A program made the translations under genes and the position numbers. Under the pieces are notes generated by a model. It worked only from the letters and a program-made list of their open reading frames with translations. It had not been told where the DNA came from and ran no database searches. A DNA stretch of 64,000 nt from Aureimonas altamirensis (GTDB lineage: Bacteria; Pseudomonadota; Alphaproteobacteria; Rhizobiales; Rhizobiaceae), in contig NZ_JAMQCO010000006.1 in the NCBI RefSeq assembly GCF_023702225.1, forward strand, positions 62,001 to 126,000, read 5' to 3'. Below are positions 48,917-64,000 of the stretch, piece by piece; positions within the stretch are counted from its first letter, which is position 1; every line of letters starts with the position of its first letter.

Positions 48917-49794
48917 CCGTCGGTGGACCCGGACAGCGCCGCCTCGAAGAACCGGGCGAACCGCCGCGCTGTCGGCAGGCCGCCGAAGGCATTCATCGGC
49001 GGCAGGATATGCGCGCGCCCTGCCGCAACGGCCGGAATGGCCTTCCACAGGGCGCTGTGCGGCAGGGCGGCGGCCGCATCCGGCGGCACGGGGCCGACGA
49101 CGACGACGATGGCGTCCGGCCGCTCGGCCATCGCCTCGATGCCGATGGGGGCGGAGGCGGCATAGCGGGTATCGCCTGTGAAGGCGTTTTCGAAACCGAG
49201 ATCCGCCATGACGCTGCCGAACAGGGAATCCGGTCCGAACACCCGCACATGGCGGGCATCGCCGAGATTGACGAGATAGACCGGCCTTCGGGCGTGGACC
49301 GCAAGATTCTGCCGGCCGGTTGCGATCAGCGCCTTGGTGCCCGCGATGTAGACGGCCGCCTCTTCGGTGCGCTCGAGGTCTTCGCCCATTCCCCGCGTCG
49401 CGGCTTCCATAAGGTCTATGGGCCGTCGTCCGCCACCGAAGACGGGAAAGGACCGCACGGGGGCGATCCGCGCGATCTGCGGCTCCGCCCAGGCGTTGAA
49501 GGGCGAAATGTAGATCAGGTCGGGATGGACGCTGAAGAGAAGCTCGAGGTTGAACGAGCCGCGCAATCCGAGGTCGATCACGCTTTGCGGTACCGCCGGC
49601 TCCACCGCAAGGCGACGGAAGAGGACCAGCTCGACGGCGGCCACCGGCGTCACGCCGAGGGCCAGGATCGTTTCCAGCAACGCCCAGTCCAGCACGGCGA
49701 TGCGTTGCGGCACGCTTGCCGCCGCACCACGCGGCATCAGCGACAGGGTTGCCAGGCCGGCCATGAAGCCGCGCCGGTCAAGCGCGGCGGTCAT
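48913..49794 (-). CDS. fhuD: Fe3+-hydroxamate periplasmic binding protein (FhuD-like)
   Basis: A 293-aa class III periplasmic binding protein. A short twin-arginine-like signal (MTAALDRRGFMAGLATLSLM; the RRGFM motif suggests Tat export, as known for some FhuD proteins) is followed by RIAVLDWALLETILALGVTPVA and LLFSVHPDLIYISPF, typical of siderophore-binding proteins. It lies 8 bp after the receptor gene and overlaps the permease start by 4 bp. Confidence 0.9.
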   Translation of the reverse strand: MTAALDRRGFMAGLATLSLMPRGAAASVPQRIAVLDWALLETILALGVTPVAAVELVLFRRLAVEPAVPQSVIDLGLRGSFNLELLFSVHPDLIYISPFNAWAEPQIARIAPVRSFPVFGGGRRPIDLMEAATRGMGEDLERTEEAAVYIAGTKALIATGRQNLAVHARRPVYLVNLGDARHVRVFGPDSLFGSVMADLGFENAFTGDTRYAASAPIGIEAMAERPDAIVVVVGPVPPDAAAALPHSALWKAIPAVAAGRAHILPPMNAFGGLPTARRFARFFEAALSGSTDG

Positions 49795-49802
49795 GCCCTA
49801 CC

Positions 49803-51947
49803 TCACCACTTGTAGGCCACCGACGCGATGACGCTGCGGCCCTCGCCGTAGAAGCAGCCGAAATTGCAGCTTGCGACATACTCTTCATCGGCCACGTTGT
49901 TGACGTTCAGAGCGGCCTTGAAATCATCCTTTTCGTAGCGGATCGCAAGGTCGACGAGCGTTGCGGACGGCAGGTCTATGGAATTGGCATTGTTGCCGAA
50001 GCGCGAGCCGATATAGCGGACGCCGCCGCCCAGCGAAACACCTTCGAGCACCGTTCCGGGCTGGAACGCGTAATCGAGCCAGAGGGCAGCGGCATGTTCC
50101 GGCACGTTGGCCGGGCGGTTGCCGGTCGTGGTGGCGGTTATGATGCCGGCCACCACGGTGTCGTCCCCTTGCGTGATCTCCACGTCGGAGTAGGTGTAGT
50201 TGCCGACGAGGCTCAGCCCGTCGGTCAGGCTTGCCGTAGCCTCCAGTTCGAAGCCGCGCGAGCGGATCTCGCCCGTCTGGGTGATCTCGCGCACCAGCGA
50301 TCCGCCGTCCGGCACGGCCTGGTTGGCGACGACGTTGGTCTGCTCGATCTGGTACAGCGATGCGGTGACGAACGAGTTCCAGCCTGCCGGCTGGTACTTG
50401 ATGCCGCCCTCGACCTGCTTGCCTTCCGAAGGCTTGAACAGTGCGCCGTCGGAGGTTTCCCCGGTGATCGGGTTGAAGGATGTCGCGTAGCTGACGAAGG
50501 GCGCCAGGCCGTTGTCGAACAGATAGACCGCGCCCGCACGCCCGGTCAGGGCGTCGTCATCGACGCTGCCGCCGGCATTGGACAGGTCCGACCAGTCCTG
50601 GCGCAGGCCCGCGGTGACGACCAGCCGGTCGAAACGGATCTGGTCCTGCGCGTAGATGCCGGTCTGCTTCAGGTCGACATTGGTGATGTTGGCGCCATCC
50701 GGGTCGACGATGACGGGCGTACCGTAGACCGGGTCGAAGGCGTTGATGGGCAGTGCCGTGCCCGAGAAGTTCGACGAGCGGTCGAGATTGTTCTGCCGGT
50801 AGTCCAGCCCGATCAGCGCGGTATGCTGGAGAACGCCGGTCTCGAACTGCGTTTCGACCTGATTGTCAATACCGAAGCTGTTTGTCAGCTCGTCCTGGAC
50901 GGAGGGGCCGCGCGCCACGGTGAAGTTGTCGGCGCCGAGGCCGGCGAAGTAAAGGTTCTGGTAGTTGAAGTCGAGCCGCGTGTACTGTGCGTTCTGGCGA
51001 AACTCGACCGCCTCGTTGAAACGATGGCTGAACTCGTAGCCGATCGTGCCGAACCAGCTTTCGGAATCGTTGAAGTCGGGCTCGCCCAGATACAGGCTCG
51101 GCGGAAGGCGGCCATAGGGGTTGCCGTCCAGCGTGCCGGCCTGGGGCAGGCCGACGGGCGAATCCGCCTTGTCGTACTGCAGGCTGCCCATCAGCGTGAA
51201 GCTGGTGTCGGCGTCGGGACGGAAGCTGATCGACGGCGCCAGGTAGACGCGGTCGTCGTCGACGTAGTTCTGCTGCGTTTCCGAAAGGCGGCCGAGGCCG
51301 ACCATGCGGTAGCTGACATCCTCGTTGTAGACGCCGCCGACATCGAACTTGGCGACGTAGCGGTTGTTGTTGCCGATCTCGGCGCCGACATTGCGGAATT
51401 GCGTGAAGGTCGGCCGCTTCTGCACGAGGTTGATGATCCCGCCGGGGGCGCCCTGGCCGTACAGGACGGAGGCCGGCCCCTTCAACACCTCGATGCGTTC
51501 GAAGCCATAGGGCTCGAAGGCGAGCGCGCCGAAATCGCGGATGAAGCGGAAGCCGTTGATGTAGAGGCTGTCGGTCGATTCGAAGCCTCGGATGATGGGC
51601 GAGAAGAAGCGCGGGTCGGCCCCGAAGGGCTGCGTCACGACGCCGGACGTATAGTTGAGCGCCTCGCCGATATTCTGGACGCCGCGATCTTCCATCTGCT
51701 GGGTGGTGACGACCGAAATGGACTGAGGCACCTCGATCAGGGGCGCCGAAATCTTGGAGCCGGTCTGCGTCTGCGTCGCGACATAGCCGTCGACCGGGCC
51801 CGTCGCCGTGCCGAACGTGCCGCCGGTTCCACCGCCGCCGGCACCCTCGACGACCACCGTGTCGAGCGTGACGGACGATTGTGCGTGGGCGCAAAGGGGT
51901 ATCGCGACCGAGGCCGCCAGAATGGACAATCGATGGCCGAGGCGCAT
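49803..51947 (-). CDS. TonB-dependent ferric-siderophore receptor (FhuA/FhuE-like)
   Basis: A 714-aa outer-membrane receptor with signal peptide (MRLGHRLSILAASVAIPLCAHAQ), a TonB box region (TLDTVVVEG, about 28-36), a plug domain (SAPLIEVPQSISVVTTQQMEDRGVQNIGEALNYT; ERIEVLKGPASVLYGQGAPGG), and a 22-strand type barrel ending in aromatic KW. The plug pattern is that of the ferrichrome/hydroxamate group, consistent with the FhuD and FhuB neighbours. Start ATG at 51947 after CGGAGT. Regulation by iron is expected but no clear Fur or RirA site was found. Confidence 0.92.
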   Translation of the reverse strand: MRLGHRLSILAASVAIPLCAHAQSSVTLDTVVVEGAGGGGTGGTFGTATGPVDGYVATQTQTGSKISAPLIEVPQSISVVTTQQMEDRGVQNIGEALNYTSGVVTQPFGADPRFFSPIIRGFESTDSLYINGFRFIRDFGALAFEPYGFERIEVLKGPASVLYGQGAPGGIINLVQKRPTFTQFRNVGAEIGNNNRYVAKFDVGGVYNEDVSYRMVGLGRLSETQQNYVDDDRVYLAPSISFRPDADTSFTLMGSLQYDKADSPVGLPQAGTLDGNPYGRLPPSLYLGEPDFNDSESWFGTIGYEFSHRFNEAVEFRQNAQYTRLDFNYQNLYFAGLGADNFTVARGPSVQDELTNSFGIDNQVETQFETGVLQHTALIGLDYRQNNLDRSSNFSGTALPINAFDPVYGTPVIVDPDGANITNVDLKQTGIYAQDQIRFDRLVVTAGLRQDWSDLSNAGGSVDDDALTGRAGAVYLFDNGLAPFVSYATSFNPITGETSDGALFKPSEGKQVEGGIKYQPAGWNSFVTASLYQIEQTNVVANQAVPDGGSLVREITQTGEIRSRGFELEATASLTDGLSLVGNYTYSDVEITQGDDTVVAGIITATTTGNRPANVPEHAAALWLDYAFQPGTVLEGVSLGGGVRYIGSRFGNNANSIDLPSATLVDLAIRYEKDDFKAALNVNNVADEEYVASCNFGCFYGEGRSVIASVAYKW

Positions 51948-52063: not shown

Positions 52064-52648
52064 TCACAATCGAGGCCGTTCCATGTTCCAGAGCTTGGCG
52101 TTGCTGGATGACACGGCGACAGCGCCCAGCTTCAACGCCGCCTGTGCATCGGCTTGCGTGCATATGAAACCGGAGGCCACCGCAGGCGGCATGCGCTTTC
52201 GATCGTCTGCAGGGATGTGCGCCAGCATGGGCGCCGGCATCAGCTGCACCAGGTTGGGGCTGCTTTGCGAAATGGCCTTGACGCTGCGCGGCCAGGTAGA
52301 CCGATCCGTGACGAATACCTTTTGCATGGTCAGAAGGCCGCATTGCGCGGCCTTCTGGATCGTCGGAACCCTGGTGGACAGAAGAACGGAAATCCCCGCT
52401 TCGGACAAGAATTCGATTGCCCCCTTGTCCTGGGACAGACCCTCGCAACTATCGATATTCAACACGATCAGCTTGTTACGCCGAGTCAGCGTCCGTACCA
52501 GTTCGGCCACATGGCGCAGCGATATATTGGCCACGATCCCGATCTCGGCACGACTGGCCAGGAACGTGTCCACCTGCTCGGTGCCATAAAGCGTCGCCAT
52601 GACCGGATGGCGCATCAGTCTCTCGCCGATGGTTCTGTCCAGGGCCAA
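52064..52648 (-). CDS. GlpP-family (glycerol-3-phosphate-responsive) antiterminator
   Basis: A 194-aa protein of the GlpP/G3P_antiterm family (PF04309), TIM-barrel-like RNA-binding antiterminators; E. coli YgcP is also a member. Landmarks: FLASRAEIGIVANISLRHV, LNIDSCEGLSQDKGAIEFL, LLSTRVPTIQKAAQCGLLTMQKVFVTD, and PNLVQLMPAPM. The start is TTG at 52648, with GAGAGG 5 nt upstream; the ribosome binding site overlaps the stop of the FAD oxidase gene. Last gene of a five-gene operon, so it may autoregulate. The effector may be a phosphorylated polyol. Confidence 0.88.
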   Translation of the reverse strand: MALDRTIGERLMRHPVMATLYGTEQVDTFLASRAEIGIVANISLRHVAELVRTLTRRNKLIVLNIDSCEGLSQDKGAIEFLSEAGISVLLSTRVPTIQKAAQCGLLTMQKVFVTDRSTWPRSVKAISQSSPNLVQLMPAPMLAHIPADDRKRMPPAVASGFICTQADAQAALKLGAVAVSSSNAKLWNMERPRL

Positions 52649-52650
52649 GA

Positions 52651-54204
52651 TTACCTCTCCGCGTCGCGGGGCATTTCCGCTGACAGGCCGAGCTTGCCCG
52701 GGTTCAGGAGATTGTCCGGGTCGAGCGCCGCCTTCACCGCCTCCAGAATCGGAAACGCGCTGCCGAGACTGTCGCGCATGTAGGGCGCGCGCAAGAGCCC
52801 TACGCCGTGGTGATGGCTCAGGGCTGCATTATGCCGGACGAGGACGGCGTTGGCGGCATCCCATGCGGCGCGATACCAGGCGCCGCGGCGCTCGACATCC
52901 ACGTCTCCGCGAAGCGAGAAGTACAGGCAAGCCCCATCGACATAGGCGTGCGACTGGTGCGCCGAGCCGGCCAGCGTGCCCGGAACCGCGTTGATAGCCG
53001 CGACGACCTCATCGTAGATTGCCGGAAGGTCTCTCCAGCAGCCCGTCATCTCCAGCGTATCGGCGACGAAACCGGGACTGCGCTTGAACCCCTCGGCGCT
53101 CTTGCCGGTCAGGTAGCGCGTGTCCAGCCAGCGCTCGAAGATGGCGTCGCCGTCCAGCTTGCGGCCAAGGCCGGCGCAGACCCGTTCGCTGATGGCCATC
53201 ACCGCATCGACCATTTCCGGTGCGCCTTCGTCGGCGATCAGCAGCACGTTGAGCGCCGGTTCTTCGAACTGCACGCCGCTTTCCAGGGCATCGTACAGGC
53301 GCAGCGCGGCCGGGTTCGCGCCGCCCTGCATGATCTGGCGACAAGCCTCCAGACCGGTTGCGAAACTATCGAATCCGTATGCGATGGCGCGGGTGTAGTC
53401 AGGGAGGCGATGCAGTTTCAAGCGGACGCGCACCACGATGCCCAAGGTGCCCTCGGATCCGATGAAGAGCTGCTGAAGGTCGGGGCCTATGGCCGCGCGC
53501 GCATAGCCGCCCAGTGTCACCAGCTCTCCGTCAGCCAGCACGACATCCATCCCGTAGACCATGTCTTCGATCTTGCCGTATCGCGTGGACAATTGTCCTG
53601 CGCCCCGGCATGCCACCCAGCCACCGACGGTGCTGATGCCGAAGGAGGAGGGCCAATGGCCCATGGTCATGCCGTAGGACTTCTGGATCGTATCCTCGAA
53701 GACGTCGCCGAACATCCCGGCTTCCACTTCGACGATCTGGCTGTCCGCATCGAACCCGACCAGACGGTTCATGTCACATACGTCCAGCACGATGCCGCCG
53801 CGTAGCGGCAGGGCTGCGCCCGTCACATTGCTGCGGCCGGCCGAGACGGTCAGCGGCAGGCGGTGGCGATGGGCAATGGCCATGACGGCCTGCACTTGCT
53901 CCACCGTCGATATTCGCACGAAGACACCGTCCACCGCCGCGGGCGTGCCGTCCGTTTCCGCGATCATGGTGCCGGCCCACCAGTCGCGTGTATTGACGAC
54001 CAGATCGTCCCGCGTGGTCAAGACCTCGTCCGCCGCGTCACGCAACTCCGCAACGACGTCCGGCGAAACTTCTACGGCATTGCGGGCAAGGCCGGCTGAA
54101 GCGCCGATCGTCTCTATAGCCTTCGCGTAATGCGGTTGGGTCGGCGCTCCGACGACGTAGTTGCCGCGATTGTATCCGCGGCGCACCGCTTCCTTGCTCA
54201 TCAT
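52651..54204 (-). CDS. FAD-linked oxidase of the alkyl-DHAP synthase / YgcU type
   Basis: A 517-aa VAO-family flavoprotein. FAD-binding features: VDGVFVRISTVEQVQAVMAIA, VSAGRSNVTGAALPLRGGIVLD, GHWPSSFGISTVGGWVACRGAGQLSTRYGK and GSEGTLGIVVRVRLKL. The C-terminal LSHHHGVGLLR (about residue 463) is the histidine motif of alkyldihydroxyacetonephosphate synthase. It may act on a phosphorylated triose or polyol rather than make ether lipid. It starts 1 bp after the GlpD-like gene (tandem ATGs), within the MFS-kinase-GlpD-oxidase-antiterminator operon. E. coli YgcU has the same architecture. Confidence 0.87.
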   Translation of the reverse strand: MMSKEAVRRGYNRGNYVVGAPTQPHYAKAIETIGASAGLARNAVEVSPDVVAELRDAADEVLTTRDDLVVNTRDWWAGTMIAETDGTPAAVDGVFVRISTVEQVQAVMAIAHRHRLPLTVSAGRSNVTGAALPLRGGIVLDVCDMNRLVGFDADSQIVEVEAGMFGDVFEDTIQKSYGMTMGHWPSSFGISTVGGWVACRGAGQLSTRYGKIEDMVYGMDVVLADGELVTLGGYARAAIGPDLQQLFIGSEGTLGIVVRVRLKLHRLPDYTRAIAYGFDSFATGLEACRQIMQGGANPAALRLYDALESGVQFEEPALNVLLIADEGAPEMVDAVMAISERVCAGLGRKLDGDAIFERWLDTRYLTGKSAEGFKRSPGFVADTLEMTGCWRDLPAIYDEVVAAINAVPGTLAGSAHQSHAYVDGACLYFSLRGDVDVERRGAWYRAAWDAANAVLVRHNAALSHHHGVGLLRAPYMRDSLGSAFPILEAVKAALDPDNLLNPGKLGLSAEMPRDAER

Positions 54205-54205
54205 A

Positions 54206-55882
54206 TCAATATTCTCCCGTAAGGATCGATTTTTCTTTGTGTATCGCCGCCTCGTACCCGGCGATCTGACTGGCGATCTCGTTGGACGAGAGCTTCAGTT
54301 CCCGCCCGATGATCTGCCCAACACGCGCCGCCGCCCGGCCAGAGGCATCGCGGGCCATCAGACGGGCCCGCATACGTCGCGACAGGACATCGTCCACCGT
54401 CGCCGCCATCTCATGCCGCACGGCGTACAGGACTTCCGCTTCGGTGAAGGGAAGCCCTTCGACGATGGGCGTGGAGAGGTCCGCGTCCTCGGCCATAAGG
54501 TCGCTGACGAAGCGGGCTTCGGTGCCATAACGCTCTCCTAGATGGGCCTCCATCCCGCCAGAGGCGACAATGGCTTGCGCATCGTAGCCGGCTGCGCCCA
54601 GCAGCCAGGCCTTTCGGGACGTGCACTTGCGCCGCTCGCCCAATACCTTGCCCACGGCATCCACCGTCTGCTCCGCCATGTGACGCGCGGTCGTCAGCTT
54701 TCCGCCGACGATGGAAACCACGCCGTCTTTTCCGAGATGCACCGTATGGTCGCGTTTGACATCCATCGTGCTGCCGCTTGGCGAGGCCGAAACGAGCGGG
54801 CGGCAACCGGCGATGCTGCCGACGACGTCCTCCACATCGATGTCGATCTTCAGTGCCGAACGGGCGCCCTCAAGCAGAAAATCGAGCTCGGCGCGCGTGC
54901 AGTGAACATCATCGAGACTGCCTTGATAATCCTCGTCCGTCGTGCCGAGATAAGAAACGTTTCCCCACCTCGTGATGGTGGCTCGTCGGCTGCGCCCCGG
55001 GACGGGAATCGTCACGGTGCAGTCGTTGCGGACTTTCAGCCAGGGAATTGCGACGTGCACGCCCTTGGCCGGCCTGACATGGAGCGGCCTCTCGTCGTCG
55101 CTCGCTCCCATCCAGTCCCGCATCCAGACGCCGGTCGCCATGACCACGGCCTTTGCGCGGACACGTATTTCGCGGCCGGACGCGGTCTCGACGAGCGCGC
55201 CATCCGCCATTCCTCCATTGCGCGTCAGCGCCATGACGCGCGCATGGTTGAGAATAGCTGCGCCGTGGTGGGCGGCGGACCGCGCTAGCGCCAGTGTCAG
55301 CCGGGCATCGTCGACGCGGGCATCGAAATACATGAAACCGCCGCGCAACTGCTCGTCGCGAAAAGTCGGACAGTGAGACAGCACCTCTGCTGCGCTGAGC
55401 CGCTGATGAAGGATGCCCTCGCGCCACCCACCGGCCAGATCGTAACTCCAGAGCAGGCCCTCGAACGCCTTGGCCATTCGGGCATCGAAGATGCCGTCGC
55501 GCTCCAGGATCGGGAACAGGAACGGCAACCGTTGCACCAGATGCGCGGCGTTGCGGCGCAGCCTCTGCCGTTCCAGAAGGGAATGCCGGACAAGTCCGAG
55601 ATTGCCCTGCTCGATGTACCGCAACCCACCATGGACCATCTTGGACGACTTGGATGAAGTGCCGGACGCGAAGTCGTCTTTCTCGATCAATGCGACGCGA
55701 TAGCCGCGCAGCGCCGCATCGAAGGCGCAGTAGCATCCCGTAACGCCTCCGCCGACGATCAGGAGGTCGAAGGCCTCGTCGGCCAGCCTGTCTTCCTGCT
55801 CGGCGCGTACGATCCGCAAGGGCTCGGTGCGGGCAAGACCCTCGCGGTCACGGCGGGCGCGACGGCCGGGAAGTCGAAACAT
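54206..55882 (-). CDS. glpD: FAD-dependent glycerol-3-phosphate dehydrogenase-like protein (GlpD family)
   Basis: A 558-aa flavoprotein of the GlpD/DAO family, expected to oxidise sn-glycerol-3-phosphate (or a related polyol phosphate) and pass electrons to quinone. Shown by the FAD loop DLLIVGGGVTGCYCAFDAA near residue 40, GTSSKSSKMVHGGLRYIEQG, ATGVWMRDWMG, and a C-terminal helical domain with AATVDDVLSRRMRARL. ATG at 55882 is preferred because AGG lies 8 nt before it; ATG at 55894 is an alternative. It starts 19 bp after the kinase gene. Exact substrate uncertain given the divergent kinase. Confidence 0.88.
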   Translation of the reverse strand: MFRLPGRRARRDREGLARTEPLRIVRAEQEDRLADEAFDLLIVGGGVTGCYCAFDAALRGYRVALIEKDDFASGTSSKSSKMVHGGLRYIEQGNLGLVRHSLLERQRLRRNAAHLVQRLPFLFPILERDGIFDARMAKAFEGLLWSYDLAGGWREGILHQRLSAAEVLSHCPTFRDEQLRGGFMYFDARVDDARLTLALARSAAHHGAAILNHARVMALTRNGGMADGALVETASGREIRVRAKAVVMATGVWMRDWMGASDDERPLHVRPAKGVHVAIPWLKVRNDCTVTIPVPGRSRRATITRWGNVSYLGTTDEDYQGSLDDVHCTRAELDFLLEGARSALKIDIDVEDVVGSIAGCRPLVSASPSGSTMDVKRDHTVHLGKDGVVSIVGGKLTTARHMAEQTVDAVGKVLGERRKCTSRKAWLLGAAGYDAQAIVASGGMEAHLGERYGTEARFVSDLMAEDADLSTPIVEGLPFTEAEVLYAVRHEMAATVDDVLSRRMRARLMARDASGRAAARVGQIIGRELKLSSNEIASQIAGYEAAIHKEKSILTGEY

Positions 55883-55901
55883 GGAATACCTCATCGGTCC
55901 G

Positions 55902-57455
55902 TCATCCGCCGCTGCGAGCCGGGGGCAGATGGTTTTCATAGGCGCCGGCACGGGTGCGGCCGATTTCGTCAGAGATGGCCGCTTGCCAACCGGCCCTGCG
56001 CGCGAGACGCTCGTCATCCGACAGGGAGGGCTCGAAGGTCTCGCCGCGTGGAAGCGTGGAACGGGCCTCCGAAAGATCGCTCCACATGAGGCCGCGCGCG
56101 CCGGCCATGAACGCCGTGCCACGCAGGCTTGCGCGCTCGGCGTCGGGCATTCGGCGCACGGGGACGCCGCCAAGATCGGCCTGCATGCGCAGCAACGGAT
56201 CCGAAGATGACAGTCCGCCACCCGCAACCAGCTCGTGCATGCGTTTGCCGGCAACCAGTTCGTCCGCCTCCACGCAGGAGACGACAGAGTGGGCGATACC
56301 TTCCAGAACCGCATAGGCCAGTTCCTCGCGCGTGTGGGTCATCGAAAGCCCGGTCAGGGAGGCGCGGGCTGCCGGCTCCATGACTGGCTGCCGAAGTCCC
56401 GTCAGCGTCGGAACGAAGCGGATGCCACGCGCCCCGTCGGCCATCGCCGCCAAGGCGCTGATCTGGCGCGCATCGTCGAACCAGCGCATGTCGTTGCACA
56501 GCCAGTTGAGAGCGGATCCAGTGGTGGCCGCATAGGTTTCCACCGCAAGGTTGGAACGCCCGCCCTTGCGCCACGCGGTCATCGTGAACGTGGCCTCGAA
56601 AGCGCCGGGCCGCGCCGGGCGCTCCTGGCCGATGACAAGATCAACGAAGCTGCCGGTTCCGTGGACGCACATGGCCTGGCCACTGTCATGGCAGCCGAGG
56701 CCGACAAGACCCGCCAGTTGGTCGCCCATCGAGGCCATGATGGGTACGCGCATGCCAAGGATGTCGCGGCGGGTATGACCGAAGTCGTCGGCGTCTTCCC
56801 TGAGGACCGGAAGCAACTCTTCCGGAAACTCCTGCGCGCGAAGCCACTCGTCGATATAGCTATGCGTGCGGAGATCATATGCGCCGCAGGAGGTGGCGTT
56901 GGTCGGCGTCGTCACCACCTGCCGCACTTCGGAAAGATGCCACAGAAGCCAGCTGTCGACCGTTCCGAAGGCGAGGCGGTTTTTCTTCAATGCATCCGAA
57001 ACGCAAGGCGTGTTGCGCATGTGACGCGCGGCCCACAGATAGATAGCGCGCGCACCGATGGGCCGTCCGGCGCGCTCGATCAACGCCCGATCCCAGTGCG
57101 GCGAGAGGGCCTTCAACTCTTCGGAGAAGCGGGTGTCCTGCCATACCATGGCCGGGACGAGAGACCGTCCGGTTTCCGTGTCCCAGAGGACCCCCGTCGC
57201 CCGTTGCGTCGTCAGCGCCAGGGCGGCGATCTCCAGGCCTTCGGCGGGAGCCGAGGCGATGACCTTCCGGCACATCGTCAAAGTCGTTTCCAGAAGCGCA
57301 TCGGCGTCCTGTTCGACGACGCCGTGGCGCGGCGTCGTCACCTTGAGCGGGGCATAGGCGGGGGCGGTGACACCGCCATCCGCCCGCACCAGGGCAGCCC
57401 GTGTTCCGGACGTGCCTTCGTCTATCGCCAGTATGGCTTGCTGCAGCATCGTCAT
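55902..57455 (-). CDS. FGGY-family polyol kinase (glycerol kinase-like, divergent substrate pocket)
   Basis: A 517-aa kinase with N-terminal AIDEGTSGTRAALV (phosphate loop), ALTTQRATGVLWDTETGR, MVWQDTRF, SMGDQLAGLVGLG (catalytic Asp) and a C-terminal VAGGGLSSSDPLLRMQADLGG adenosine motif. It resembles GlpK in length, but the glycerol-contacting NQRET is TQRAT here (Glu replaced by Ala86) and the PYFSGTK tyrosine region is RPIGARAIY. A polyol other than glycerol is therefore likely. Start ATG at 57455 with GAGGGG upstream, 9 bp after the MFS gene. E. coli YgcE is a comparable FGGY kinase. No glpF is adjacent. Confidence 0.85.
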   Translation of the reverse strand: MTMLQQAILAIDEGTSGTRAALVRADGGVTAPAYAPLKVTTPRHGVVEQDADALLETTLTMCRKVIASAPAEGLEIAALALTTQRATGVLWDTETGRSLVPAMVWQDTRFSEELKALSPHWDRALIERAGRPIGARAIYLWAARHMRNTPCVSDALKKNRLAFGTVDSWLLWHLSEVRQVVTTPTNATSCGAYDLRTHSYIDEWLRAQEFPEELLPVLREDADDFGHTRRDILGMRVPIMASMGDQLAGLVGLGCHDSGQAMCVHGTGSFVDLVIGQERPARPGAFEATFTMTAWRKGGRSNLAVETYAATTGSALNWLCNDMRWFDDARQISALAAMADGARGIRFVPTLTGLRQPVMEPAARASLTGLSMTHTREELAYAVLEGIAHSVVSCVEADELVAGKRMHELVAGGGLSSSDPLLRMQADLGGVPVRRMPDAERASLRGTAFMAGARGLMWSDLSEARSTLPRGETFEPSLSDDERLARRAGWQAAISDEIGRTRAGAYENHLPPARSGG

Positions 57456-57464
57456 CTGGTCCCC

Positions 57465-58877
57465 TCAGTCGCCGGCAAACTGTGGCGCATCCGGCTCGTT
57501 GTCCGGATTAACGGAGGAGCGGGTCGGATCCCACCGGATGACGCTGCAGACGATGCAGGCCGCCAGCGGAACTGCCGACAGGATCAGGAACGTCGTCCCC
57601 AGCCCATACGCCTCCCTGAAGAGCGGGAAGACGAGTAGGCCGATGGCCGCGCCGGTTGCACCCATAGCGCCGATGATCCCGTTCGCGCCGGCACGCAATT
57701 CGCTTCGGAATGACAGGGAAGACAGGCTCTTTCCGTTGGCGCCGGGGCCGCCGGAGTGAAACAGGATGAAGAGCGAGGGAACGATCACCGCCAGCCAGAC
57801 CGGCATCGTGTCGTGGAACAGTCCCATGATCACCAGCATGCAGAAGACGGCGCCGAAGCCGATGGCCGAAGCCCTGCGTAAGCCGAAAAAGCGTCCGATC
57901 GCAGGCGACATGAAGCCGCCGACGACTCCGAAGACGTTGAATACGAGCGTGCCCAGCATGGCGTTGATGAAGTCGGTGCCGAACAGCGATGCGCTGATGA
58001 GCGGCAGATACCAGCCCACGGCAAAATACTGGATCGACTGGCCGATCTGCACCGTCGCGGCCAGGATGGTGCGCGGCAGGTATACGCCCCGGAAGATCAA
58101 CGCGATGTTGCGGAAACCGCGCTTTGCCTGGTTTATGACCGGCAGGCGCTCGGCCGGCGGAGCCGCGACGAAGCCGAGGCCGTAGATGCGGCTCATGGCC
58201 TTGGCAGCGTCGTCCAGCCTTTCCTTTCGCGCGAGCCAGACGGGGCTTTCGACCATGAAGACGAACTGCAGCAGCATGATCGTCAAGGCGAAGACGCCTG
58301 TCGCCGCGACGGAATAGCGCCAGATCGTATCGCCGACGTCCCAACTGTAGAACATCATCGCCAGCAGGATATTGGTGCACACCGCAAGGTACCAGATGCC
58401 TTGCCAGGTGTTCAGGCGGCTGCGCAGTCGGGCCGGGGTAAATTCGGCCAGCACGGCCATGGCGATGGCGAAATCGATGCCGTATGCCGCGCCGACGAAG
58501 AACCGGCCGAAGATGATCATCTCGTAGCTTTGTGCCGTTGCGACGAGCACGGCGCCGATCAGGGCCAGGAGCTTGGCGAAGACGAGCGGGCGCATGCGCC
58601 CCCAACGGTCGGCCATCCAGCCGCCGATCGGGTTGAAGACGATCGCGACCCAGGATGCGAAAGACGTCATCAGTGCCACTTCGCGGGCGTCCAGCCCCAT
58701 ATCCCGCGTCATCGGACCAAGGCCCGCGCTCAGCGCCGAGTTGGCGAAGGCGTCGAGAAACAGGCCGCCGAGCGCCAGCCACCAGATAAGGCCGGCGCGC
58801 CCGCGGATACCGTCGCTCTTGTCGATGAACGAAATAATGTCTTCGATGCCCCGCAGGGCATACTTGCTCCCGTGCAT
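57465..58877 (-). CDS. MFS transporter (metabolite:H+ symporter type, YgcS-like)
   Basis: A 470-aa major-facilitator protein with about twelve membrane segments, a cytoplasmic N-terminus (MHGSKYALRGIEDIISFIDK) and the family motifs GGWMADRWGRMRPLVFAK (loop 2-3, near residue 85) and FFVGAAYGIDFAIAMAVLAEFTPARLRSR. It is expected to import the operon's substrate together with protons. ATG at 58877 is preceded by GGAGGAGTAGTGAC. First gene of the five-gene operon; its 158-bp leader contains a strong hairpin. E. coli YgcS is a similar MFS protein. Confidence 0.87.
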   Translation of the reverse strand: MHGSKYALRGIEDIISFIDKSDGIRGRAGLIWWLALGGLFLDAFANSALSAGLGPMTRDMGLDAREVALMTSFASWVAIVFNPIGGWMADRWGRMRPLVFAKLLALIGAVLVATAQSYEMIIFGRFFVGAAYGIDFAIAMAVLAEFTPARLRSRLNTWQGIWYLAVCTNILLAMMFYSWDVGDTIWRYSVAATGVFALTIMLLQFVFMVESPVWLARKERLDDAAKAMSRIYGLGFVAAPPAERLPVINQAKRGFRNIALIFRGVYLPRTILAATVQIGQSIQYFAVGWYLPLISASLFGTDFINAMLGTLVFNVFGVVGGFMSPAIGRFFGLRRASAIGFGAVFCMLVIMGLFHDTMPVWLAVIVPSLFILFHSGGPGANGKSLSSLSFRSELRAGANGIIGAMGATGAAIGLLVFPLFREAYGLGTTFLILSAVPLAACIVCSVIRWDPTRSSVNPDNEPDAPQFAGD

Positions 58878-58942
58878 GTCACTACTCCTCCCAGAGTAAC
58901 AGACACATCCACATAAGGGTCGGGGCAAGTTTCGGACGAGCG

Positions 58943-58965
58943 AAGACCATCATGCAGATGGTCTT
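58943..58965. promoter_or_regulatory. Perfect hairpin/palindrome in the leader of the MFS-kinase-glpD operon
   Basis: AAGACCATC-ATGCA-GATGGTCTT: 9-bp perfect arms around a 5-nt loop, 66-88 bp upstream of the MFS start. No T-run follows it in the operon direction, so it is not a simple terminator. It could be an operator or an RNA structure bound by the operon's own GlpP-type antiterminator. Confidence 0.6.
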
Positions 58966-59035
58966 ATATCTTCGTCTGCAATTCGATCTTTATCCGCCTG
59001 CCGAAATCCTGTCAATCACCGCGGAGGCGGGTGCA

Positions 59036-59821
59036 TCAACGTTCAGCCGCGGCAAGGATGGCTTCCTGCCGGATTTCCTCGGTAAGACGGGCGCGCAGGG
59101 AGGAGAATTCCGGGCTGGATTTCACCGTGTAGTGACGCGGATGGGGCAGGTCCACGGAGATGATCGACTTGATCCGGCCCGGGCGCGCCGACATGGTGAC
59201 GACGCGCGAGCCGACGAAGATCGCTTCCTCGATGTCGTGGGTCACGAACAGGACCATCTTGTGCTCGCGCTCCCAGATGCCGAGAAGCAATTCCTGCATC
59301 AGGCCGCGCGTCTGGTTGTCGAGCGCGCCGAAGGGCTCGTCCAGAAGCAGGATCTTGGGGTCGTTGGCGAGGGCCCGGGCGATGGCGGTGCGCTGCTGCA
59401 TGCCGCCCGAAAGCTGCTTGGGCCAGTGGTTCTCGAAGCCCTTCAGCCCGACATCGGCAATATACTGGGCGACGATCTCACGGCGCTCGGCCTCGGGAAC
59501 GCGCTTTTCGCGCAGGCCGAAGCCGATGTTTTGCTCGACCGTGAGCCACGGAAAAAGCGTATAGGACTGGAAAACCATGCCGCGGTCCGGGCCCGGCCCA
59601 CGGATTTCCACGCCATCCAGCGTCACGCGGCCGCTCGTCGGCCGATCCAGCCCGGCAACGATGCGCAACAGTGTCGACTTGCCGCAACCGGAGGGGCCGA
59701 GGATGGTGACGAAGTCGTTGGCCGGTACCGTCAGGCTGGTCGGTTGCAACGCCGTGACGGGCGCACCGCCCCGCACGCCGGGAAAGATGCGGCCGACGCC
59801 GTCGATGACGAGTTCGCTCAT
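59036..59821 (-). CDS. ABC transporter ATPase (nitrate/sulfonate/taurine type)
   Basis: A 261-aa ATP-binding subunit of the SsuB/TauB/NrtD group. Walker [12 protein letters not shown] near residue 41, Q-loop [15 protein letters not shown], signature [15 protein letters not shown], Walker [17 protein letters not shown], and the H-loop VTHDIEEA are all intact. ATG at 59821 overlaps the permease stop by 4 bp. Third gene of a binding protein-permease-ATPase operon. Confidence 0.92.
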
Positions 59822-60594
59822 GCGAACCTCCAGGCGAAGACCCAACGGTTGAAGGATTTGAACAGGAAGTCTGAGATGAGCCCGATGATTCCGATGACGA
59901 TGATGCCGAAGATGATCTGCCCCGTCGCCATGAGTGCCTGGCTGTTGATGATCATGTACCCGATGCCGGAGGATGCGCCGATCAGTTCCGCAACGATGAC
60001 GTAGGTCCACGCCCAGCCAAGCACCAGCCGAAGGATCTCGGCGATGTCGGGCGCGTTGGCCGGCATCAGAACCCGTGCGACTACGCCCCTGTCACGGGCG
60101 CCCAGCGTGTATGCCGCCTCGACGAGATCCTGCCGTGTCGAGGCGACCGACCCCGCGACCATCAGCACGATCTGGAAGAAGGCGCCGATGAAGATGACCA
60201 GCAATTTCTGCGTCTCGCCGATACCCGCCCACAGGATCAGCAGCGGCACGAAGGCCGAGGCCGGCAGATAGCGCGCGAAGGAGACGAAAGGCTCCAGCAG
60301 CGCCTCGATGGGCTTGTAGGCGCCCATGGCGATGCCGATCGGCACGCCCAGCGCAGCCGCGACGGCGAAGCCGCCGACGACGCGCCACACCGTCATGCCG
60401 ATATCGTATAGAAAGCCGCGTTGCATGAGGCTCCACCCGTCCGCCAGCATGGTGAGCGGATCGGCAAGGAAGGTGCGCGACACGAAGCCGCCCAGCGTGG
60501 CCACCGCCCAGAGGGCGACGAAGGCCACGAAGAAGGATATGCCGAGGACGACGCGCGTTGTGGCGCCGACCGGCTGAAACGGACGAAGCATCAT
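59818..60594 (-). CDS. ABC transporter permease (SsuC/TauC type)
   Basis: A 258-aa inner-membrane permease with about six helices. The N-terminal span ([20 protein letters not shown]), a [20 protein letters not shown] segment, and the cytoplasmic EAA loop [20 protein letters not shown] near residue 165 are typical of this group. Tandem ATGs at 60594 and 60591. Overlaps the ATPase gene by 4 bp and follows the binding protein by 24 bp. Confidence 0.92.
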
Positions 60595-60618
60595 GATCCT
60601 GACGGCGCTGAACCTGGC

Positions 60619-61563
60619 CTACTTTATGTACTGATCGTCGTAAAGCGTTGTGACATCCGGCTTTTCGCGGATGACGCCGATCTCCAGAAGCAGGTCTGCC
60701 GCGGCCTCGGAGAAGGTCTTGAACTCACCCTCGAAAAAGGTCGCATTGGCGGCCTTGTCCTGCCAGCGAAGATGCTGTGCCGAGCTGGCGAACTGCTCGG
60801 CCGTCTGGTTCACGTCGGCCCCCATGATCTCATAGGCCTTGTCGGGGTCCGCCGCGATCAGTTCCAGCGCCTCGAAGTAGCTGTCGGCAAGGGCCTTGCC
60901 GGCTTCGGGATTTTCTTCGAGGAAGGCCGGCGTACAGCCCACCGTGTCCATGACGGCCGGGTAATCGAGCGTCGTTGCGAGGATCTTGCCGGAATCGGGC
61001 GCGTCGCGCACCGTCGACAGATAGGGCTCGTAGGTCATGGCGGCGTCGTTCTGTCCGGCAACGAAGGCCTGGGCGGCGGGGCCGGGCTCGAGATTCACGA
61101 TCCGTACGTCGCGCATCGTCATGCCGTTTTCCTTCAGCATCCAGGCCAGCAGGAAGTAAGGAGACGTGCCGGGTGCGGATGCGGCCACCGTCTTTCCTTC
61201 AAGGGCCTTGAAGTCGGCGATGTCTCCGCGGACCGCGATGCCATCGGCGCCATAGGACTTGTCCAACTGGAAGATCTGCGTTGCGGGAACGCCGTTGGCG
61301 CTCCACGCGACCCAGGTTTCCACCGTCGTCGCGGCGCACTGGATATCACCCGAAGCCATTGCGAGATGGCGGCTGGCTTGCGGGATCTTGGACAGGGTTA
61401 CGTTTAGCCCATGCTTCTCGAAGATGCCGGCCTCTTTCGCCAGCGTGAGGGGTGCGAAACCCGTCCAGCCGGAGAAGCCCAGATTGACGTTCGTCTGCGC
61501 CATGGCTGGCGCAGCCGCCAGGGATGCGAACAGGCCTGCCAGAATTCCGTATCGCGCAACCAT
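60619..61563 (-). CDS. ABC transporter substrate-binding protein (SsuA/NrtA/NMT1 type)
   Basis: A 314-aa periplasmic protein with signal peptide (MVARYGILAGLFASLAAAPAMAQ) and an NMT1/SsuA-like fold: LGFSGWTGFAPLTLAKEAGIFEKHG, GDIQCAATTVETWVAWSANG, and GVRGDIADFKALEGKTVA-like AVRGDIADFKALEGKTVA. Ligands of this class include sulfonates, nitrate, taurine and pyrimidine precursors; none can be chosen here. Start at 61563 with GAGGGACCC upstream; an in-frame extension lacks a signal sequence. First gene of the operon, divergent from the GabD-like gene. Confidence 0.9.
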   Translation of the reverse strand: MVARYGILAGLFASLAAAPAMAQTNVNLGFSGWTGFAPLTLAKEAGIFEKHGLNVTLSKIPQASRHLAMASGDIQCAATTVETWVAWSANGVPATQIFQLDKSYGADGIAVRGDIADFKALEGKTVAASAPGTSPYFLLAWMLKENGMTMRDVRIVNLEPGPAAQAFVAGQNDAAMTYEPYLSTVRDAPDSGKILATTLDYPAVMDTVGCTPAFLEENPEAGKALADSYFEALELIAADPDKAYEIMGADVNQTAEQFASSAQHLRWQDKAANATFFEGEFKTFSEAAADLLLEIGVIREKPDVTTLYDDQYIK

Positions 61564-61639
61564 GGGTCCCTCGTTGGTGGATTGCATATGTCTACACATA
61601 ACCAATGTCGCGGCTCCGGATTCAAATCAAGGCCACGGC

Positions 61640-61758: not shown

Positions 61759-63258
61759 ATGACAATTGCGCAGGTTGAACAGATGTTGACGTCCAGCAAT
61801 TCCGGCACGGCTACGCTACGGCTCTCCGACCCTAACCTCCTGAAGCAGCAGTGCCTCGTCGATGGCGCATGGCGTGATGCTGCCGGCGGCGAAACGATCG
61901 CGGTGACGAATCCGGCCGATGGATCTTCGGTTGCCCATGTTCCCGTCCTGTCGGCCAGCGAGATCGAGGACGCGATCAAGGCAAGCGCCAGGGCGCAGAA
62001 GGGCTGGGCGGCGCTTGCCGCAAAGGAGCGCGCCGCGATCCTGCGCAAATGGTTCGACCTCATGATCGCGAATGCGGACGACCTTGCCGCCATCATGACG
62101 GCCGAACAGGGCAAGCCGCTGGCCGAGGCGAAGGGCGAGATCACTTATGCGGCGTCGTTCGTGGAATGGTTCGCCGAGGAGGCCAAGCGCGTCTACGGCG
62201 AGACGATACCGGCGCCGGCATCCGACAGGCGCATCACGGTCATACGCCAACCGGTCGGCGTGACGGCCGCGATCACGCCGTGGAACTTCCCGGCGGCCAT
62301 GATCACCCGCAAGGCGGCTCCCGCGCTGGCGGCCGGGTGCAGCATGATCGTGCGCCCGGCGGACCTGACGCCGCTGACGGCGCTGGCGCTGGGCGAACTC
62401 GCGGTGCGGGCCGGCATCCCGGCCGGCGTGCTCCAGATCGTGACGGGCAAGGCGCGGGAGATCGGGGCGGTGCTGACCGCCAGCGAAACCGTGCGCAAGC
62501 TGTCCTTCACGGGGTCCACCGAGGTGGGGCGTCTTCTGATGGAGCAGTGTGCGCCGACCATCAAGCGCATGTCGCTGGAGCTCGGCGGCAACGCGCCTTT
62601 CATCGTCTTCGACGATGCGGACCTGGATGCCGCGGTGGACGGCGCCATGCTGTCCAAGTACCGCAATGCCGGGCAGACCTGCGTTTGCGCCAATCGGATC
62701 TACGTGCAGAAGGGCATCTACGATGCCTTCGCCGAGAAACTGGCCGCGAAGGTGGCCGCGCTCAAGGTCGGCAACGGCACCGAGCCGGGCGTCGCCATCG
62801 GGCCGCTGATCGAGGAAAAGGCCCTCCGAAAGGTGGAGGAGCATATCGAGGATGCGGTTTCGAAAGGGGCCACGCTTCTGTCGGGCGGCAAGCGGCTCGG
62901 CGGCCTGTTCATGGAGCCGGGCATCCTGACGGGCGTCACGCAGGACATGCGCGTATCGCATGAGGAGACGTTCGGTCCGCTGGCGCCGCTGTTCCCCTTC
63001 GATACGGAGGAACAGGTGATCGGCATGGCGAACGACACGATCTTCGGACTGGCGGCCTATTTCTACACGCGTGACTTCTCGCGGTCGGTGCGCGTGGCCG
63101 AGGCCCTGGAATACGGGATCGTCGGACACAATACCGGCATCATCTCCAACGAGGTCGCGCCGTTCGGCGGCGTCAAGCAGTCCGGCCTCGGCCGCGAGGG
63201 TTCGCACCACGGCATCGAGGAATATCTCGAGATGAAGTATGTCTGCAGTGCCGTCTGA
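61759..63258 (+). CDS. gabD: Succinate-semialdehyde dehydrogenase-like aldehyde dehydrogenase (GabD family)
   Basis: A 499-aa ALDH oxidising an aldehyde to the acid with NAD(P)+. The catalytic Glu (LELGGNAPFIVF, near residue 275), nucleophile Cys (NAGQTCVCANRIYVQ, near 309) and EVAPFGGVKQSGLGREGSHHG C-terminus match GabD. One deviation: the cofactor motif KPAE is RPAD here (MIVRPADLTPL near 200). Start ATG at 61759 or 61783; neither has a strong ribosome binding site. The next gene, an iron-type alcohol dehydrogenase, overlaps it by 20 bp, so a hydroxy-acid to semialdehyde to dicarboxylate route is possible. Confidence 0.88.
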   Translation: MTIAQVEQMLTSSNSGTATLRLSDPNLLKQQCLVDGAWRDAAGGETIAVTNPADGSSVAHVPVLSASEIEDAIKASARAQKGWAALAAKERAAILRKWFDLMIANADDLAAIMTAEQGKPLAEAKGEITYAASFVEWFAEEAKRVYGETIPAPASDRRITVIRQPVGVTAAITPWNFPAAMITRKAAPALAAGCSMIVRPADLTPLTALALGELAVRAGIPAGVLQIVTGKAREIGAVLTASETVRKLSFTGSTEVGRLLMEQCAPTIKRMSLELGGNAPFIVFDDADLDAAVDGAMLSKYRNAGQTCVCANRIYVQKGIYDAFAEKLAAKVAALKVGNGTEPGVAIGPLIEEKALRKVEEHIEDAVSKGATLLSGGKRLGGLFMEPGILTGVTQDMRVSHEETFGPLAPLFPFDTEEQVIGMANDTIFGLAAYFYTRDFSRSVRVAEALEYGIVGHNTGIISNEVAPFGGVKQSGLGREGSHHGIEEYLEMKYVCSAV

Positions 63259-64000
63259 CGCCGTCCGGACGGAGGAGGGCGTCTCGCCATTCTCCTTCCG
63301 CACCGTGCCTGCGATGCTGGCCGAATGGGGCGGCGCACGCCGCCTCGGCGGCATGCTGGCGGACTGGCGGCCCGAGAGGAACCTGCTTCTGGTCACCGAT
63401 GCCGGGCTGCACCGTGCCGGCGTGCTGGAGCCGGCCAGGCGCTCTTTGGCCGCCTCCGGTTTCCGCGTCACCGTCTTCGATGCCGTCGTCGCCGACCCGC
63501 CGGAAACCGTATTGCTGGCATGCGTCGACGCTGCGCGGGCGGCGGGCTGCGACATCGTGGTTGGTCTGGGCGGTGGCTCGTCCATGGATGTCGCCAAGCT
63601 GGCCGCCGTGAAGATCGGCTCATCCCAACCGCTTTCCGACATGTACGGCATCGACAGGGTCGTCGGCGCGAGGGTACCGCTGGTGCAGGTGCCGACGACG
63701 GCGGGCACCGGTTCGGAAGCCACAAACATCACCATTCTCACGACCGGCGAGACGACCAAGATGGGCGTCGTTTCCGCCCAGCTCTACGCGGATCTCGTGC
63801 TTCTGGATGCGGAACTGACGGTCGGGCTGCCACCACTGCATACGGCAGCCACCGGTATCGATGCCATGGTGCATGCGATCGAGGCCTATACGTCCCGCCA
63901 CAGGAAAAACCCGTTGTCCGATGCGCTTGCACGCGAGGCCCTGCGGCTTCTGTCCGCCAACCTCGTCGATGCCTGCCGCGACGGGCAAAACCGGCCGGCG
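63239..64000 (+). CDS. Iron-containing alcohol dehydrogenase (3' end outside window)
   Basis: 254 residues visible of a family of about 380. The N-terminal Rossmann-like part shows VVGLGGGSSMDVAKLAA near residue 98 and PLVQVPTTAGTGSEATNITIL near 145, followed by ADLVLLDAELTVGLPPLHTAATGIDAMVHAIEAYTSR carrying the first metal ligands (Asp and His). The later His ligands lie beyond the edge. It overlaps the upstream dehydrogenase by 20 bp (ATG at 63239), implying coupling. A 4-hydroxybutyrate-type oxidation before the GabD step is one possibility. Confidence 0.9.
   Translation, partial: MSAVPSDAVRTEEGVSPFSFRTVPAMLAEWGGARRLGGMLADWRPERNLLLVTDAGLHRAGVLEPARRSLAASGFRVTVFDAVVADPPETVLLACVDAARAAGCDIVVGLGGGSSMDVAKLAAVKIGSSQPLSDMYGIDRVVGARVPLVQVPTTAGTGSEATNITILTTGETTKMGVVSAQLYADLVLLDAELTVGLPPLHTAATGIDAMVHAIEAYTSRHRKNPLSDALAREALRLLSANLVDACRDGQNRPA

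Follow-up and report, generated by a model that had tools for sequence, protein, structure and literature searches.

An apparently transferable five-gene cassette with its own leader RNA may cleave C1-substituted glycerols by AGPS-like flavin chemistry

In the EryA/EryB pathway, an FGGY-family kinase and a GlpD-like dehydrogenase make a 1-phospho-2-ketose from erythritol, and in the processing of autoinducer-2 the FGGY kinase LsrK is joined by LsrG, an enzyme of the ABM family that acts on a phosphorylated dicarbonyl. AGPS swaps the C1 substituent of an ester of dihydroxyacetone phosphate (DHAP) via a proposed adduct with its flavin adenine dinucleotide (FAD), with zero net oxidation, and R447 of the Dictyostelium enzyme is reported as important for catalysis (extracts of PMC3509576). 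In Bacillus, the PF04309 protein GlpP acts with glycerol-3-phosphate on a terminator in the 5' untranslated region (UTR), and the leaders of B. subtilis combine a GlpP site with an intrinsic terminator (extracts of PMC9604022). Here we describe a locus in which such components stand together: a five-gene operon with a conserved leader RNA in a 64,000-nucleotide stretch of Aureimonas DNA (contig NZ_JAMQCO010000006.1, positions 62,001 to 126,000; hereafter the window, whose positions we use). We tentatively read it, at just short of an even call, as a mobile cassette with its own RNA switch that would cleave a C1-substituted glycerol to DHAP and an alcohol.

The five genes span 58877-52064 on the minus strand and encode, in operon order, a major facilitator superfamily (MFS) importer of 470 aa (57465..58877; PF07690/PF00083), a GlpK-like FGGY kinase (55902..57455), a GlpD-like FAD dehydrogenase (54206..55894), an AGPS-like flavoenzyme of the vanillyl-alcohol oxidase (VAO) fold (52651..54204) and a regulator of the GlpP family (PF04309) with a TTG start (52064..52648). 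The Shine-Dalgarno sequence of the first gene, GGGAGGAG, was read from the sequence at 58885..58892 (-). Pfam assigns all five products to the expected families, and the PF04309 domain, the sole match in the host genome, is full-length (152.5 bits versus a cut-off of 27). These coordinates and families agree with those of a preliminary description made from the DNA letters, which had also put the gaps between the genes at 1-19 bp; the spacing is indeed tight, at 9, 7, 1 and 2 bp, and the figure of 19 bp arises if the GlpD-like gene is started at a later ATG.

To collect relatives, one pattern-based scan of species genomes was run with the AGPS-like protein and gave 70 loci; leaving out ten loci from metagenome-assembled genomes (44-46% identity) and adding four plasmid loci, fetched from five plasmid records with an AGPS-like match at 60-80%, gave a set of 64 loci. 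All five genes were present with order and strand unchanged in 58 of these 64 loci (AGPS-like gene at least 60% identical), a count that includes near-duplicates (two B. arboris and two C. campinensis records) and cassettes with frameshift-split genes (e.g. L025, L028, L071). The operon that the preliminary description had proposed as catabolic, and whose co-conservation it had singled out as the point to check, is thus widely kept together. Among the incomplete loci, L048, L049 and L070 lie at contig ends, L035 and L036 carry the kinase, GlpD-like and AGPS-like genes without the MFS and PF04309 genes, and L095 of Pluralibacter gergoviae (10001-10841) is reduced to the PF04309 gene plus the 3' part of the AGPS-like gene, as in a decayed cassette. 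In the ten more distant loci left out of the set, the GlpD-like and AGPS-like genes were adjacent in 10/10 and the kinase gene followed in eight, the other two ending at contig edges.

Hosts of the cassette belong to the Alpha-, Beta- and Gammaproteobacteria, to the Actinomycetota and, in one case, to the Bacillota (Sporosarcina). Within the host genus only 3 of 21 genomes carry it, and the host AGPS-like protein is 96% identical to that of A. altamirensis, the closest named relative. Since gene order is kept in 58/64 loci while occurrence in the host genus is this patchy, the cassette appears, from sequence comparison, to be transferable between unrelated bacteria. In the protein tree, Sporosarcina pairs with an Arthrobacter (support 100/99) and Bradyrhizobium and Methylobacterium are placed among the Burkholderiaceae; otherwise Pseudomonadota and Actinomycetota stand largely apart, so most transfer appears to take place within phyla. 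The cassettes of the Arthrobacter megaplasmid StoSoilB13 (L025) and of the Arthrobacter NtRootA1 chromosome (L067) were 98.5% identical over 6951 bases, and no near copy of the Citrobacter cassette was found in E. coli genomes.

Upstream of the MFS gene lies a conserved leader RNA of 58 nt (58924..58981, -), whose core is a hairpin (hairpin 1, 58943..58965, -) made of AAGACCATC, the loop TGCAT and GATGGTCTT. This hairpin folds alone and its pairs are kept across loci; a weaker outer helix, P1 (58976-58973 with 58938-58935, -), encloses it. The hairpin carries the motif AGAC(C/U)AUC in Proteobacteria and mostly AGAC(C/U)UCC in Actinomycetota. Because MAFFT misregistered the actinobacterial against the proteobacterial leaders, two covariance models were built: R1 from 20 proteobacterial leaders, of which the window's is one, and R2 from 15 actinobacterial and Bacillota leaders. 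Searched against 80 sources, the two models matched the window (R1, 55.3 bits) and all 58 complete cassettes, 42 by R1 and 16 by R2, it being understood that 35 of these 59 leaders had themselves built the models. The other 21 sources were unmatched at E up to 10 (R1) or 5 (R2), including E. coli ygc and 16 AGPS-like loci in which no PF04309 gene was detected. Eight further loci gave nothing convincing, the best value being E 0.33 in the Enterococcus locus L106, where two very weak R2 matches (E 0.33 and 0.82) lie just ahead of the first gene and ahead of the kinase gene.

The element is also rare within genomes. In the host genome, the leader is the sole R1 match at E<=1; among whole genomes, a single strong match was found in 11/12 (R1) and 12/12 (R2), with three additional weak ones (E 0.29-0.88), and the exception for R1 is the genome of L035, where the PF04309 gene is absent too. 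Of 289 Alphaproteobacteria, R1 matches the host only, and in the host genus the leader occurs in exactly the three genomes with the cassette, of which two, G005 and G013, are close to the window and contributed no leader to R1. Across 33 distinct R1 leaders, 92.6% of the cells pair, versus 34-52% when the structure is slid along the alignment, and 19 double changes were counted versus 8.0 in shuffles, in an alignment of 43 sources preselected by earlier matching; the number of pairs with double changes (187/500 shuffles) and of pair types (454/500) lay within shuffle expectation. Rfam 15, searched with the window leader and those of three loci, gave no match above gathering scores. That the leader RNA and the cassette are real is near certain, and the sequence comparisons indicate that the leader is a new structured RNA element not in Rfam 15. 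Among the matches listed, searches of the open-licence literature found no description of the cassette or the leader, which is weak evidence of absence.

How the leader would act is suggested by what surrounds hairpin 1. A putative sigma-70-type promoter precedes it (58987..59015, -), with TTGACA at 59015-59010, a spacer of 15-17 bp and a GATAAA/TAAAGA-like -10 element at about 58994-58987; such sites scored at least 9/12 in 46 of 53 distinct upstream stretches (mean 9.6 versus 6.7 in simple shuffles, spacers 15-19), and a stricter consensus scan found no promoter in the window, so the window promoter taken alone is a weak call. A U-tract follows hairpin 1 in 13/16 leaders of Actinomycetota and Bacillota and in 2/3 distinct enteric leaders, versus 0/32 of the other proteobacterial leaders. 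Downstream, segment C (58906..58916, -), 13 nt before the ribosome site, is complementary over 11 bp, three of them G-U, to segment B, the part of hairpin 1 made up of its 5' arm and loop (p=0.010 in the window). Of 51 distinct leaders, 40 show this complementarity at p<0.05, and pairing of C is on the whole stronger with the B of the same leader than with that of others (21.8 versus 15.6; at or above the 90th percentile in 35/48 leaders, enterics left out), a gap that is partly a difference between phyla.

Given the Bacillus GlpP precedent (extracts of PMC9604022) and the co-occurrence of leader and regulator gene, the PF04309 protein is the natural candidate for binding the leader. Its predicted site is hairpin 1, to which it would bind when loaded with a phosphorylated intermediate of the pathway. 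Intrinsic termination would thereby be prevented in Actinomycetota and some enterics; in Alpha- and Betaproteobacteria, where no U-tract follows, the 5' arm of the opened hairpin would be free to pair with segment C, altering access to the ribosome site. The RNA-level control by antitermination that the preliminary description had foreseen therefore holds in part: a conserved leader exists and the leaders with U-tracts fit, while strict antitermination seems a poor fit for the host's own leader type, with its 0/32.

Alternatively, the leader could work as a riboswitch sensing a metabolite, or as an operator at the DNA level, and not be what the PF04309 protein binds. Hairpin 1 is palindromic, which explains the weak R1 matches found on the minus strand (E 0.12 and worse), the long-range pairing is riboswitch-like, and both ygcP of E. 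coli and the PF04309 gene of the Enterococcus locus L106 lack a confident leader match. We nevertheless consider this quite unlikely, since the leader stands before all 58 cassettes with a PF04309 gene and was found at none of the 16 AGPS-like loci without a detected one, nor in the genome of L035 (leaders there could have diverged), and since the element sits after the promoter-like site and in part carries strand-specific U-tracts.

We then considered whether the operon merely handles glycerol. The kinase of the window scores 323.9 bits with the GlpK model TIGR01311, below its curated cut-off of 590, the cassette kinases of six genomes score 302-345 bits, and each of these six genomes holds a separate true GlpK (681-763 bits). 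The GlpD-like protein similarly reaches 290.5 bits with NF008899, below the cut-off of 360. As signature residues of GlpK, R83, E84, Y135, D245 and F270 have been given (extracts of PMC3245297). In the cassette kinases, D245 and F270 are retained in 60/60 and R83 (QR motif) in all 59 that are readable, whereas the E84 position holds A, S or C in 59/59 readable kinases and, with no gaps allowed in the loop alignment, the Y135 position A, V, T, I, C or G in 60/60; the counts for these two positions assume an ungapped P...W spacing, and L028 is unreadable at E84. Both residues are kept in 6/6 true GlpKs. Since E84 and Y135 bind glycerol hydroxyls, their loss suits a substituted or larger substrate. 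An arginine in the loop RPxGxRSxYLWA (or close) is moreover invariant in 60/60 kinases (in the window at about 57063-57030, -, at the Tyr135 loop of GlpK) and might be a pointer to a charged substituent.

The residues R54, Y55, H233, R317, R332 and K354, which we take to be the substrate site of GlpD in list and numbering, are conserved in 61/61 cassette GlpD-like proteins; this intact site suits a glycerol-3-phosphate moiety and supports the phosphorylated intermediate predicted earlier, here of glycerol type. A divergent glycerol operon made of GlpK and GlpD paralogues with an unrelated flavoprotein would still account for the closest solved relatives of both proteins, which are glycerol kinases and glycerol-3-phosphate dehydrogenases or oxidases, and for the sensing of glycerol-3-phosphate by the Bacillus PF04309 protein (extracts of PMC9604022). 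With scores this far below 590, true GlpK present in 6/6 genomes, E84 and Y135 lost, and the AGPS-like protein among the best conserved of the five, we hold such an operon to be very unlikely. A plain glycerol operon was rejected on the sub-cut-off scores, the two lost residues and the separate GlpK, which also answers in part the earlier suggestion that bona fide glycerol proteins be looked for.

The chemistry is suggested by the fourth protein, to which AGPS enzymes come closest in sequence among proteins of solved structure, with profile scores of 319/287 bits for AGPS versus 204 for D-lactate dehydrogenase. The catalytic Tyr (Y578/Y508) and Arg (R419/R352) and the HHH motif of AGPS are present: Y578 of mammalian AGPS (Y578F in PDB 4bca) aligns to Y428, R419 (R419H in 4bc7) to R302, and the histidines are H464-H466. 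None of these residues varies among 22 diverse sequences, which reach down to 28% identity and take in YgcU, and where D-lactate dehydrogenase (8jdc) has a C-terminal EHG motif, the AGPS-like protein has HHHG. A Foldseek search with the predicted model (pLDDT, a per-residue confidence score, 80.5) puts AGPS at the top by E-value. The protein lacks 27-28 residues that form a segment in both AGPS enzymes; if this segment is, perhaps, the lipid gate of AGPS, its absence suits a small substituent. That the FAD protein carries out a second oxidation, as proposed in the preliminary description, has become doubtful, since extracts of PMC3509576 describe zero net oxidation for AGPS, its closest solved relatives.

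With its AGPS catalytic residues, the protein could also be thought to build an ether, as AGPS does in biosynthesis. An importer, an own leader and a patchy occurrence are hard to reconcile with this, the lipid-AGPS-specific segment is absent, and we regard the idea as highly improbable; synthesis of ether lipids in particular was rejected on the operon context. We name the protein AGPS-like rather than AGPS, any acyl-to-alkyl exchange activity being a matter for an assay.

Put together, these features suggest the following route. The MFS protein would import a small glycerol bearing a C1 substituent X (an ether or the like), the kinase would phosphorylate its free end, and the GlpD-like enzyme would oxidise C2 to give X-dihydroxyacetone phosphate, the kind of compound used by AGPS. 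The AGPS-like flavoenzyme would then take the C1 proton, form an adduct at N5 of FAD, expel X and add water to yield DHAP, that is, run AGPS chemistry in the direction of cleavage. An alcohol dehydrogenase of the iron or zinc type would take up the released alcohol and oxidise it, as would, in some hosts including that of the window, an aldehyde dehydrogenase at the following stage. The cleavage chemistry itself we advance as tentative. That the whole constitutes an undescribed 'retro-AGPS' route, together with a new leader family that couples transcriptional and translational control through one PF04309 protein, we put forward as a possibility to be held with reserve. Open-licence literature searches on bacterial glycerol-ether cleavage and glycosylglycerol catabolism found nothing relevant among the matches listed.

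Genes next to the cassette bear on the last steps. Flanks were compared in 19 representative loci from 19 genera and counts were made on the 55 cassettes that had 2 kb or more of downstream sequence. This comparison overturned our earlier view that there is no conserved sixth gene: an ABM-domain gene (PF03992) stands just after the PF04309 gene in 32/55 cassettes, and an alcohol dehydrogenase gene follows the cassette in 32/55, of the iron type in 20 and of the zinc type in 12, never both; all the alcohol dehydrogenases that were scored fall under the NCBIfam cut-offs. Two unrelated types of alcohol dehydrogenase in one slot speak for a released alcohol. The window cassette has neither gene downstream; an iron-containing alcohol dehydrogenase, probably accessory, was instead located by tblastn at 63290..64000 (+), cut by the window end and 63% identical to those beside enteric and Paraburkholderia cassettes. 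Next to it, at 61759..63258 (+) and divergent from the upstream ABC operon, lies an SSADH-like aldehyde dehydrogenase gene (TIGR01780, 715 bits versus 646), whose membership in the pathway is suggested by this neighbour. The A. altamirensis locus L026 shows the same iron-type arrangement (66%), and distant AGPS-like genes, too, have iron-type relatives in their vicinity, in Paracoccus (L096, 52%, together with an aldehyde dehydrogenase) and Shinella (L100, 59%).

The ABM gene feeds the most serious competitor, a double oxidation of another polyol: kinase and GlpD-like enzyme would make a 1-phospho-2-ketose, the FAD protein would oxidise the next hydroxyl, and the ABM protein would rearrange the resulting phospho-dicarbonyl in the manner of LsrG. 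The intact GlpD-like site, the altered kinase pocket, the superfamily and fold that the FAD protein has in common with D-lactate dehydrogenases, the ABM gene in 32/55 cassettes with its one weak LsrG match (23.6 bits versus 135) and the genes similar to electron-transfer flavoprotein (ETF) genes beside E. coli ygcU are all in keeping with it. The HHHG motif and Tyr of AGPS are retained and the EHG motif of the dehydrogenase is missing, and ABM is absent from 23/55 cassettes, the window's included; we judge double oxidation somewhat unlikely. Because of the ABM and alcohol dehydrogenase genes, we rated cleavage slightly lower, and double oxidation slightly higher, than we had before.

Several points weigh against cleavage to DHAP and an alcohol under control of the leader. 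The chemistry is deduced from sequence. The predicted fold matches D-lactate dehydrogenases about as well as AGPS, with template-modelling scores among the 50 best Foldseek matches of 0.80-0.84 versus 0.63-0.75 by target and 0.70-0.75 versus 0.64-0.80 by query. A third catalytic residue, Dictyostelium R447 (extracts of PMC3509576), aligns to a residue other than Arg, in a loop of uncertain alignment. Sixteen of the 55 cassettes have neither ABM nor alcohol dehydrogenase within 3 kb downstream, the ABM gene, if LsrG-like, would imply a phospho-dicarbonyl and so fit a true second oxidation, and ETF-like genes occur in the related ygc locus of E. coli. In the kinase, the invariant loop Arg is unexplained, one alignment putting it at Y135, and just one of the 11 kinases compared from other AGPS-like clusters retains F270 (PMC3245297, extracts). 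On the side of control, contact between the PF04309 protein and the RNA is assumed, the long-range pairing fails in three enteric leaders (p 0.60-0.74) and misses p<0.05 in eight others, and a helix hiding the Shine-Dalgarno sequence was significant in only 3/51 leaders.

AGPS-like genes outside the cassette show a comparable grouping. In 11 annotated plasmid loci, a non-random sample chosen from hit lists, the AGPS-like gene lies near a kinase and a candidate ketone-forming dehydrogenase in ten: GlpD with an FGGY kinase in L096, L098 and L099; glycerol dehydrogenase with an FGGY kinase in L097, L106 and L107; an iron-type dehydrogenase and a short-chain dehydrogenase/reductase (SDR) with an FGGY kinase in L100; GlpD with a lipid kinase in L104 and L109; and PdxA with a four-carbon acid sugar kinase in L103. 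L105 has the kinase and no ketone-forming dehydrogenase among its annotated neighbours. All kinases of such other clusters (n=11) lack E84. In Streptomyces and Tsukamurella (L104:5405-10207, L109:5671-10309), GlpD-like, TetR, AGPS-like and lipid/diacylglycerol-kinase genes are grouped, so that the kinase-dehydrogenase-AGPS logic recurs there in a lipid form. On the Enterococcus gilvus plasmid (L106:4665-9458), glycerol dehydrogenase, an own PF04309 regulator, FGGY kinase and AGPS-like genes form one run, and in Methylobacterium nodulans (L103:8989-12604) the PdxA, kinase and AGPS-like genes are followed further along by coenzyme A-transferase, MaoC and AMP-binding genes. In L035 (3418-8319) and L036, a sugar ATP-binding cassette (ABC) importer and a dehydratase of the IlvD/EDD type (821 bits versus 539 in L035) lie upstream of the kinase, and L035 also has an aldehyde dehydrogenase; these extra genes are a possible clue to the released group.

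Around the window cassette, a sulfonate/nitrate-type ABC importer (ATPase, permease and NMT1-like binding protein) lies directly upstream at 59036-61605 (-), an arrangement also seen in A. altamirensis L026 and in none of the other cassette loci mapped. Directly downstream, within 46961-51947 (-), is a TonB-dependent siderophore receptor gene, beyond which genes for an apparent siderophore-importer binding protein and a fused permease were read from the sequence.

If the cleavage route is correct, a flavin mechanism known for building ether lipids would also dismantle glycerol derivatives, and bacterial 'FAD-binding oxidoreductases' of the AGPS-like type, YgcU-like proteins included, would gain a testable role. 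The leader is of interest apart from this chemistry, being a compact RNA element that comes with a candidate regulator dedicated to it. Some variants have a terminator U-tract and others lack it, which offers a handle on how one regulator family might pass from controlling transcription to controlling translation, and the element may find use as a portable switch.

Compared with described systems, the locus departs most visibly from the E. coli ygc genes to which it had first been likened. The ygcP/ygcS/ygcU/ygcE region has four of the five families in common, at 30% identity for YgcU, 25% for YgcS (over 344 aa), 24% for YgcP and, for YgcE, local matches only (21-25%); it has an SDR (YgcW) in place of GlpD, ETF-like genes, genes on both strands and no leader match. 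Close kinship was rejected on these low identities and the different gene content, judged without a tree, and no study of YgcU or YgcE function was found among the matches listed in an open-licence literature search. With the LsrK/LsrG pair, an FGGY kinase and an ABM-family protein are shared, whereas the LsrG model matches weakly and the window cassette lacks ABM. The EryA/EryB pathway has its FGGY kinase and GlpD-like dehydrogenase in common with the cassette, and we know of no AGPS-like or PF04309 partner there. Shared with the GlpK/GlpD pathway are family, fold, catalytic Asp and glycerol-3-phosphate site, in contrast to the loss of E84 and Y135 and to scores below both equivalog cut-offs. 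As in B. subtilis, where GlpP acts on glpD, glpFK and glpT leaders (extracts of PMC9604022), a PF04309 regulator accompanies a glycerol-type operon; it differs in serving another operon, through one dedicated leader per genome searched, which has a long-range pairing close to the ribosome site and lacks the U-tract in the clade of the host. Finally, the flavoprotein differs from eukaryotic AGPS by its 20-25% identity in Foldseek alignments, the missing segment, the lost equivalent of R447 and a catabolic-looking context, while sharing with it the catalytic Tyr, one catalytic Arg, the HHH motif and the VAO fold.

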